From: an uncultured Clostridia bacterium
Lineage (GTDB): Bacteria; Bacillota; Clostridia; Christensenellales; Borkfalkiaceae
DNA: 64,000 nt
Assembly: GCA_947631195.1 (NCBI GenBank)
Contig: CANRKK010000002.1
Coordinates: 62,001-126,000, forward strand
Direction of reading: 5' to 3'
The notes below the pieces were generated by a model, which ran no database searches, was not told the origin of the DNA, and worked only from the letters and a program-made list of their open reading frames with translations. Positions 48,517 through 49,544 of the stretch are shown one piece after another. Each line of letters opens with the position of its first letter. The first letter of the stretch is position 1. A program made the position numbers and the translations under genes.

Positions 48517-48990
48517 TCAATTTTCGGCGGCAAAATTTATCAGATTTTTATGTTTTTTTACGGCGTATTTATAGGCCTTGTACGCGCCGCTGTTCGTCCG
48601 CTCCTCCGCATAGAACAGCACCAAATCGCTTTGGTCTATCATCGCGCAGTTGCGGTAGTATATGGCGGTGTACCACCAATTAAACTCCTTTGTGGGACAC
48701 TCGTAACTTTCATATTCCTGTTTTTTGAACCATGCGGGCGGCTTTCGCAGCTGGTTTTCAAGCGCGAAACAAAATACCCGCTTTATCCCGAGCCGGGGCA
48801 ACTCCTCCCGCTTTTTTGTTACGATGTCATATACAAGCGAATCGAAACTGCTTCTGCCGCCGAACAGAAACGTGCGTACGCCGTCCGCTATCGCCCTGTC
48901 TATAGCTGCCTCCGTCTTTGCTTTCAGACTTTCGGTTATTTCAACTTCGAAGTGACCGAAACAGGAACATACTTTTTCATTTTCACACAT
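48517..48990 (-). CDS. SLOG-family protein (DUF1273/YpsA-like)
   Basis: 157 residues. The N-terminal CSCFGHFE stands where YpsA-like proteins have CxTGHR; FLFGGRSSFDSLVYDIV is the GGxxxxD nucleotide-binding core, and IDQSDLVLFYAEERTNSGAYKAYKYAVKKHKNLIN matches the C-terminal SLOG strand-helix with NSGT-type end. SLOG proteins bind nucleotide-derived ligands and act as sensors or processing enzymes in stress and anti-phage contexts. The ATG directly follows the U-run of a terminator hairpin that also holds its ribosome site (49002-49007), and two structured RNAs lie upstream. Expression is therefore probably controlled by that RNA. Confidence 0.85.
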   Translation of the reverse strand: MCENEKVCSCFGHFEVEITESLKAKTEAAIDRAIADGVRTFLFGGRSSFDSLVYDIVTKKREELPRLGIKRVFCFALENQLRKPPAWFKKQEYESYECPTKEFNWWYTAIYYRNCAMIDQSDLVLFYAEERTNSGAYKAYKYAVKKHKNLINFAAEN

Positions 48991-49198
48991 AATAAACGCC
49001 GCTCCTTTAAGGAACGGCGCGTAGAATACCGTTCCTTGGTTGCAACGCCATTAAAACCTCTTTATTTCCGTGAAAACAAATCAGCCCGGAACAGGTATTT
49101 CTACCTATATTCTGTGACTTGTTCCGCGAAAATAAAAATGCAAAAAGGATACTTCCCCGCTCGGGGAAGAAACAGAGGTTGATTTTTAATAGCGTTGC
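48991..49198 (-). ncRNA. Structured RNA A, leader of the SLOG gene (riboswitch-like)
   Basis: About 208 nt. The predicted 5' end (49198) forms a closing stem: 49184-49198 pairs with 49042-49056 (GCAACGC...GCGTTGC). Inside lie a TTCCCC/GGGGAA hairpin (about 49153-49168) and a long stem (49116-49134 with 49064-49082) capped by a core CACAGAATA...GGTAG.AATACCTGTT. The 3' part has GGAACGG...CCGTTCC (49011-49035) or, using the same strand, a perfect 10-bp terminator (48997-49019) followed by TTTATT. The terminator covers the AAGGAG ribosome site. TATTCT in the 3' hairpin loop can pair with AGAATA in the apical core. No Rfam family recognised. Confidence 0.7.
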
Positions 49199-49204
49199 AT
49201 TAGT

Positions 49205-49233
49205 ATTATAACACGGACATTTTAAAATATCAA
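49205..49233 (-). promoter_or_regulatory. Promoter of structured RNA A
   Basis: On the minus strand TTGATA (49228-49233), 17-bp spacer, TATAAT (49205-49210) with TG extension. The start point predicted 7 bases on is the first base of the closing stem. Confidence 0.8.
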
Positions 49234-49255
49234 CAATAAAACCCCAAAGCGGCAC

Positions 49256-49444
49256 AAAATTAAGAGCGCCGCCCCGTAAAGGAACGGCGCCCGTAGAATA
49301 CCGTTCCCTGGTTGCGACGCCAACAAACTCTTTCATTAGAGAAAACAGTTTGAAACAGGTATTACTACCGTATTCTGTGTTTTCTCTAAAAAAATATACG
49401 CCCCGCGGGGTGGAAAGAAAATTACTATATTTAATTGGCGTCGC
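49256..49444 (-). ncRNA. Structured RNA B, tandem homologue of RNA A
   Basis: About 189 nt with the same layout as RNA A but diverged sequence. The closing stem is GCGACGCCAA/TTGGCGTCGC (49435-49444 with 49314-49323). It has a CCCCGCGGGG hairpin (49401-49410), a 12-bp stem TTAGAGAAAACA/TGTTTTCTCTAA (49378-49389 with 49336-49347) and an apical core CACAGAATAC-GGTAGTAATACCTGTTTC. The 3' hairpin GGAACGG/CCGTTCC (49281-49307) competes with a terminator hairpin (49266-49290), then TCTTAATTTT. Compensating base changes between copies in the closing and long stems support the fold. Confidence 0.7.
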
Positions 49445-49450
49445 AGTAGT

Positions 49451-49479
49451 ATTATAGCACGGCGGATTGAAAATATCAA
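49451..49479 (-). promoter_or_regulatory. Promoter of structured RNA B
   Basis: On the minus strand TTGATA (49474-49479), 17-bp spacer, TATAAT (49451-49456) with TG extension. Nearly the same as the RNA A promoter. Confidence 0.8.
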
Positions 49480-49544
49480 CAATAAAAATAAAAAGGGCAA
49501 AAAAATTAACGGGAATTATATTCGAACACTTTTCTTTTTTGGTA

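Follow-up and report, generated by a model that had tools for sequence, protein, structure and literature searches.

What do two structured RNAs, standing one behind the other in front of a single small protein gene, do for that gene? The question is raised by a 64-kb window, i.e. the whole stretch of DNA analysed here, for which the original prediction had described paired structured RNAs with their own promoters and switch-like terminators before a SLOG gene. This arrangement was confirmed: the minus strand carries two diverged tandem RNA units in front of one SLOG gene.

Two tandem RNA units in front of a SLOG gene

All features described in this section lie on the minus strand. Copy B, from its predicted 5' end to its terminator, occupies 49261..49444 and gives a full-length match to R1, our covariance model built from 12 units (166 bits, a score that is not independent since copy B is one of these 12 sequences). 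Copy A, at 48991..49198, forms the leader of the SLOG gene and scores 157.3 bits, which is not independent either, copy A being also among the sequences behind R1. The gene itself (48517..48990) encodes a YpsA-like SLOG protein of 157 aa, assigned from the profile matches given below. The alignment of the two copies spans about 250 columns, and both fold better than their dinucleotide shuffles (z of -7.7 for A and -6.5 for B, with 0 out of 200 shuffles as good in each case). When the genome of origin was searched by BLAST with copy A, the only strong matches were A and B, the next one having an E-value of 0.13.

Promoters of a common type, TTGATA-17-TATAAT with a TG before the -10 box, are located at 49451..49479 for copy B and at 49205..49233 for copy A, each with 11 out of 12 consensus positions. 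The number of promoter matches (3, vs. a shuffle mean of 2.3) is not above chance. A match of at least 9/12 with a spacer of exactly 17 was found, however, in all 57 units of types 1 and 2 presented below, 49 of them with TTGATA.

Read from 5' to 3', type 1 units open with the closing stem, P1, located at the predicted start. A GC hairpin follows, then a long stem whose sequence varies and which is capped by the conserved apical loop, and next the second strand of P1. Each of these elements named in the original prediction, from the closing stem and the GC hairpin to the long stem with its apical core, is present in A and B, and pairing is kept where the letters of the stems differ between the two copies. 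The 5' strand of P1 is GCGACGCCA in copy B (49436..49444; partner TGGCGTCGC at 49322-49314) and GCAACGCTA in copy A (49190..49198; partner TGGCGTTGC at 49050-49042). The GC hairpin P2 of copy A was located at 49152..49169 by folding and by a hairpin scan. The apical-loop strand reads GUAG-U-AAUACC-U-GUUUC in copy B (49352..49368) and GUAG-A-AAUACC-U-GUUCC in copy A (49088..49104), and its partner is in both cases a 3' strand, GGAAC-GGUAUU-CUAC, at 49293..49307 in B and 49021..49035 in A.

On the 3' side of P1, type 1 units carry AACCAWGGAACGGUAUUCUACGGG, CGCCGUUCC, a short loop, GGAGCGGCG and a T-rich tail. The 3' strand of copy B serves both the apical pairing and an antiterminator, in which GGAACGG (49307-49301) pairs with CCGUUCC (49287-49281); the alternative antiterminator partner in copy A is CCGUUCC at 49017-49011. 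As had been predicted, one strand has two possible partners: in both copies CGCCGTTCC can pair with GGAACGG, its other choice being GGAGCGGCG in copy A and GGGGCGGCG in copy B. The terminator hairpin covers 49264..49292 in copy B (stem of 12 bp) and 48996..49020 in copy A (stem of 11 bp). In the latter, AAAGGAG (49008-49002) in the 3' arm is the ribosome site of the SLOG gene, and the T-rich tail reaches the ATG of the ORF 48990-48517, in agreement with the original description of a ribosome site within the terminator and a T-run touching the start codon.

Covariation of the alternative helices

From 70 R1 matches, we retained 57 units after removal of 11 duplicates (overlapping loci) and 2 opposite-strand matches. 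The alignment included 53 of these 57 units, with L069, L076_3708, L065 (without 3' part) and L039 (duplicate) omitted, and a redundancy filter brought it to 50 rows. The original prediction had proposed covariation among homologues as a check, and P1, the terminator and the apical pairing are supported against shuffles. P1 is paired in 97.6% of cells and shows 107 double-change cells, against a maximum of 51 in 1000 whole-strand shuffles (50 rows). The terminator is 99.1% paired (shuffle maximum 97.1%), with 27 double-change cells (maximum 17). The apical pairing, which was absent from the original prediction, joins AAUACC of the apical loop to GGUAUU of the 3' strand and can be extended to 15 bp. 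Its core helix is 94.0% paired (shuffle maximum 86.5%) with 28 double-change cells (maximum 16) in 47 gap-free rows; for type 1 alone (39 rows), it is 94.0% paired (maximum 91.9%) with 12 double-change cells (maximum 9). Alternative platform helices conserved by covariation, as in riboswitches, are found in these units for the apical pairing and the terminator.

The helices adjoining the core vary little. Flanking GUAG/CUAC is near-invariant and does not exceed the shuffles (99.5% paired vs. a mean of 99.1%), and the lower helix GUUCC/GGAAC, for which the best of several registers was used, is weak taken alone (97.1%, shuffle maximum 97.6%, P = 0.016). In L058, a GAUUCC/GGAAUC double change preserves the lower apical helix and damages the antiterminator. 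The antiterminator of type 1, also in the best of several registers, barely varies (98.6% paired vs. a shuffle mean of 98.5%), and its support comes from the comparison of types 1 and 2 and from type 3. A pseudoknot between AGAATA and TATTCT had also been proposed; it can form in A and B, but among relatives it is paired in 55.6% of cells and complete in only 6 out of 50 rows. Ranking of APC-corrected column pairs in the 50-row alignment placed mostly P1 pairs at the top; a terminator pair came fourth, and apical pairs occupied ranks 10, 32 and 33. Several non-pairing column pairs score as high as the apical pairs, since many columns change jointly between types 1 and 2. At ranks 6 and 7 are columns 67-78 and 68-77, which correspond in copy A to GG 49049-49048 and CC 49039-49038; this covariation between the inner 3' strand of P1 and a downstream CC suggests that the strands exchange once more at this point, or else it follows indirectly from the covariation of P1.

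Type 2 has nine members (L045, L066, L067, L080, L081, L086, L088, L089, and L092). Most of them have GCGAGAG/CUCUCGC as antiterminator, vs. GGAACGG/CCGUUCC in type 1; the apical helix is UGCAC/GUGCA, UGUAC/GUACA, UACAC/GUGUA or UGUAU/AUGCA, and the terminator is longer than in type 1. This same plan written in other letters is the best evidence that the mutually exclusive pairings are likely to be selected as pairings. A core hairpin GGUA-GNRA-UACC, attractive in type 1, was rejected: in type 2, its 3' side follows the changes of the distant strand, which identifies the pairing of the apical loop with the 3' strand as the conserved one.

Genes and genomes associated with the RNA

We then investigated the distribution of these RNAs. 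BLAST with copy A against 201 genomes of the family gave a match of any kind (E≤0.1) in 68 genomes and a match with E<1e-8 in 5, including the genome of origin. With R1, matches were found in 24 out of 396 genomes of the order (8 out of 142 genera) and in 3 out of 391 genomes of the class, again including the genome of origin. A SLOG frame lies within 1 kb downstream of 26 of the 34 RNA-found units of types 1 and 2; this count takes the last unit of each array (except in L048, where three were counted), omits other upstream tandem units and leaves out 8 of the 44 R1 match places in the order. The eight units lacking such a frame are L041, L043, L058, L063, L064, L065, L067, and L069, and in L043 a broken-off start resembles that of a SLOG gene. 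In the other direction, SLOG peptide patterns were searched on named genome contigs, a method which reaches only close relatives of the CSCFGH group. Most of the 17 loci identified are on records labelled as uncultured Clostridia. The RNA is directly upstream of the SLOG gene in all 16 loci with enough upstream DNA (R1 E-values from 1.8e-30 to 2.2e-4), and the record of the 17th starts 64 bases before the gene. Contigs found from the protein and from the RNA overlap in part (e.g. L077, L040). The predicted tie to SLOG genes is borne out by both searches.

Like a riboswitch, the unit sits in the leader of the gene: in 29 out of 34 SLOG-followed units, the start codon is at most 1 base ahead of the unit's 3' boundary and at most 4 bases past it, and most SLOG-followed relatives have the ribosome site within the terminator stem. 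The SLOG genes behind the RNA fall into at least four diverged groups, with the motifs CSCFGH, CFIGHRT, CFTGHRN, and FIGHxEV. Pfam YpsA matches the window protein with an E-value of 0.0042, below the curated cut-off, and 11 of 29 SLOG relatives with E≤0.01 (best 3.2e-28), which places them in the YpsA/SLOG family; a profile of all SLOG members matches the YpsA structure 2nx2 (E = 2.2e-5). Assignment to a defence system was dropped, as PADLOC gave no defence-system match among the 29 SLOG members. According to PMC6459960, SLOG proteins bind nucleotides; this says nothing direct on what the RNA senses, for which the original prediction had suggested a nucleotide signal as a hypothesis.

Some loci deserve a separate description. 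In L048 (G301:C25), a SLOG start stands behind every one of three consecutive RNA units, but the frames behind the first and second units are truncated. Genome G025 carries four tandem units, plus one elsewhere; the contigs of its loci L038 and L039 (G025:C27 and G025:C17) stop just past the SLOG start behind RNA units, which fits near-identical repeats breaking the assembly, so copy numbers may be undercounted. Two genomes of a single genus, at L041 (7014-7342) and L063 (505-930), have the RNA without SLOG; what follows it in both is a tiny ORF of similar sequence, provided with a ribosome site. The 44-aa protein of L041 matched no Pfam family. L079 and L092 have RNA and SLOG in contigs titled Candidatus Gastranaerophilales and Candidatus Scatousia, through either binning error or transfer. 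Finally, L045 (MT835511.1, 302-24709), filed as ‘Bacteriophage sp.’, has a type 2 RNA and a SLOG gene. By eye, this record carries Era-, RecO- and pyruvate phosphate dikinase-like chromosomal genes, plus large proteins resembling those of defence islands, and it is probably a bacterial contig.

Screening the 391 class genomes with R2, the type 2 model, revealed 18 places in 15 genomes, and 14 of the 18 places hold units of a third type. Thirteen of these 14, with one unclear unit, formed a first type 3 alignment of 14 units. A helix scan of this alignment, free of any imposed structure, ranked four helices as the longest: the antiterminator, the apical pairing, the terminator and P1. R2 matches a unit in each of 40 loci taken from the R3 and R2 searches (best per locus from E = 3.4e-12 to 5e-3), and R3, the type 3 model, matches each of the seven type 2 loci submitted to it (E from 7.7e-9 to 5e-5). 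Against the window, R3 gives E-values of 0.005 for copy B and 0.26 for copy A. Given the reciprocal matches of R2 and R3, types 1, 2 and 3 can be read as one putative superfamily, types 1 and 3 being linked through type 2.

R3 matches (E≤1e-4) place type 3 in 95 out of 391 class genomes (56 out of 222 genera), often with at least six candidates per genome. In a phylum-wide sample used as a specificity check, where this class is represented at least five times, only 1 out of 219 genomes matched, the genome of origin of the window. Two type 3 matches in that genome (E = 2.1e-10 and 2.2e-4) are doubtful, as they failed the P1 test and had no promoter match. In 84 distinct rows, from an alignment with four opposite-strand matches and one cut unit among its members, the apical pairing of type 3 forms in 97.9% of cells and shows 22 double changes (shuffle mean 4.7, with none of 500 shuffles as high), P1 and the terminator taken together are 99.5% paired with 211 double-change cells, and the antiterminator is 89.6% paired (shuffle mean 87.8%) with 23 double-change cells (mean 12.7). 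After removal of 2 duplicates, 1 cut unit and 4 opposite-strand matches, 80 of the 87 R3 matches were used; 77 of these 80 entered the type 3 P1 test (58 after filtering), and 67 of the 80 have a promoter match of at least 9/12.

The genes behind type 3 are of several kinds. Among the 79 units with at least 400 nt downstream (near-identical paralogues kept in), 38 have a ribosome-site-like sequence and a start codon within 35 nt past the terminator, vs. 8 out of 276 control positions; the remaining 41 have no qualifying start codon within that distance. About 14 of the 38 genes have the look of BspA-type leucine-rich-repeat proteins by a rough pattern. Out of seven proteins submitted to Pfam, four gave matches above the cut-off (BspA-type LRR, RCC1 repeats, copper-amine-oxidase N domain, MazE-like), two had no match and one was below the cut-off only. 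Among three proteins behind SLOG-less type 1 units, two gave no Pfam match and the third matched below the cut-off. By eye, small cysteine-rich proteins recur behind type 3. Two tandem units, as in the window, were found in 9 out of 71 type 3 loci. Related RNAs being common in Clostridia before other genes, many of surface type, this looks like a broad, unstudied form of gene control in gut bacteria. It had been proposed that the RNA is a device controlling SLOG: its association with SLOG genes stands, but a role specific to SLOG is too narrow a view, since the related type 3 precedes many other genes. The interpretation of the original prediction, as a whole, is partly supported.

Proposed mechanism, alternatives and known systems

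From its sequence, each unit is likely to be a cis-acting leader RNA working as a transcription attenuator, copy A and most SLOG members acting also as a ribosome-site switch. The transcript would start at P1 or within one or two bases of it. If the apical loop is called strand 2, GGAACGGUAUUCUAC strand 3, CGCCGUUCC strand 4 and GGAGCGGCG strand 5, strand 3 would be transcribed after the apical loop and before strand 4, and would have the choice between strand 2 (apical pairing) and strand 4 (antiterminator). With 2:3 formed, strand 4 would be free for strand 5, leading to termination with the SLOG ribosome site buried (OFF). If a bound signal or factor kept strand 2 inside the folded 5' domain, strand 3 would pair with strand 4 and the gene would be ON. 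We infer in which order the strands fold, which way the switch turns and that it is set by a small molecule or by a protein. The predicted energies are -16.3 (A) and -13.4 kcal/mol (B) for the apical loop with strand 3, with no pseudoknot penalty applied, -10.9 and -11.7 kcal/mol for the antiterminator hairpin, and -16.7 and -18.4 kcal/mol for the terminator. Together with the order of synthesis, these values suggest that the default fold would be the apical pairing with the terminator (OFF), unless the apical strand is held. The 15-bp pairing with the apical loop is sterically demanding and counts against this mechanism, as do, for a cis reading, the 8 SLOG-less units out of 34 and the 41 type 3 units out of 79 without a nearby start.

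Moreover, tandem units each having their own promoter and terminator (A and B, or the four of G025) are unusual for a plain cis switch and also fit a trans-acting RNA. As an alternative, the terminated units may be trans-acting, with either the SLOG protein or other units as their target. In its SLOG-specific form, they would be stable small RNAs binding and restraining the SLOG protein, in the manner of a type III toxin–antitoxin system with a leaky terminator, and tandem copies would raise the RNA dose. Tandem RNA-terminator units ahead of one small protein gene, and the persistence of solo copies with an eroded or absent SLOG, speak for it. So do the inhibition of cell division upon YpsA overproduction in Bacillus and Staphylococcus (PMC6459960) and the precedent of AbiF/RCd22 in Clostridia, an RNA antitoxin upstream of a toxin gene whose RNA motifs can be repeated (PMC12373285). 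We nevertheless consider this form unlikely: an antitoxin needs no conserved switch with a buried ribosome site, four diverged SLOG groups stand behind type 1 RNAs, many unrelated genes stand behind the related type 3 RNAs, and none of the 29 SLOG members matches a ToxN-like or AbiF-like family.

Attenuation by a ribosome translating a short leader peptide from the 3' strand of P1 through the switch is very improbable. An ATG, TTG or GTG is present there in 35 out of 50 units, 26 of them with a ribosome-site-like sequence, but it is absent in 15, including 6 of the 8 type 2 rows. Three frames stop after two codons, and the others have lengths of 10 to 70 codons or lack a stop within the examined stretch; the frame is broken where the switch loop has gained or lost one or two bases, and the letters can be explained by pairing constraints. 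We rejected this reading because the frame is not conserved among type 1 and 2 units. In the window, a short open frame with a ribosome-site-like sequence, of a kind seen in many type 1 units and not frame-conserved, runs from the 3' strand of P1 at 49051-49007. Still less probable is a reading in which the units regulate nothing and are mobile or decaying repeats; the patchy spread (24 out of 396 genomes of the order) and the tandem arrays, some of them eroded, would fit, against which stand two-sided covariation, constant promoter spacing and constant gene position, and phage and plasmid searches with the RNA pair of the window gave no match. A phage or plasmid origin was likewise discarded: SLOG relatives were absent from the plasmids and viral contigs searched, and the sole protein match in a phage collection is MT835511.1, described above.

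The best reading remains an undescribed class of cis-acting attenuators or riboswitch-like leaders, of which the SLOG leaders would be one branch. More tentatively, this may be a large riboswitch class of Clostridia, with many copies per genome reading one common cell signal via the conserved apical loop and 5' domain, so that surface proteins, small regulators and SLOG sensors would be controlled together. Because apical loops and 3' strands are closely similar within a type, terminated copies, tandem ones above all, might set each other's switches in trans.

The original prediction had named no described family matching these RNAs, and Rfam gave none on the units scanned. Release 15 identified only a tRNA in the whole window, and nothing close to a gathering score in the twin-unit region at E≤10. 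No match on the RNA units was obtained in 20 type 1 and 2 loci at the gathering threshold, nor in 16 loci at E≤0.5 (14 of them with the type 3 units found first, before L109-L175). Our literature search found no description of the RNA, the supplementary tables of large motif screens (e.g. PMC8040213) being outside this search, and the accessible parts of PMC8040213, PMC12373285, PMC11109978, PMC8632094, and PMC6459960 do not mention it. Present in about a quarter of the sampled class genomes (95/391), with a switch supported by covariation and no Rfam match, it would rank among the more widespread unassigned regulatory RNAs of gut bacteria. The signal could be approached directly through the set of genes behind the leader, and the branch with SLOG ties a leader RNA to a family proposed to sense nucleotide signals.

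Three kinds of known systems can be compared with these units. They resemble type III toxin–antitoxin and AbiF/RCd22 loci in having a structured RNA, a terminator and then a small protein gene. As to a repeated RNA upstream of the intervening terminator, the present units are in tandem in some loci and in single copy in others. However, our units are about 180-225 nt long with their own promoters, vs. tens of bases for the known type III motifs. By its sequence, the protein belongs to the YpsA SLOG family and would not have the toxin fold of ToxN/AbiQ/CptN; it is neither an endoribonuclease nor AbiF, and related RNAs precede unrelated genes. T-box, EutV/ANTAR, and LicT-type systems rely on alternative pairing between an antiterminator and a terminator, a feature shared by the present units. 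These have no Rfam T-box match, and the competing strand in A and B is an apical loop about 45-55 nt upstream in place of the tRNA or short protein-bound hairpin of these systems. Transcription-attenuating riboswitches combine a conserved folded leader domain with mutually exclusive antiterminator and terminator helices, and some of them hide the ribosome site. The units described here likewise have a folded domain and exclusive antiterminator and terminator helices directly before a gene; no Rfam aptamer matched the units scanned, and the units can be called riboswitch-like by their helices and position. They also differ from these riboswitches in that tandem units each have their own promoter, and in that the predicted 5' end itself builds the closing stem.
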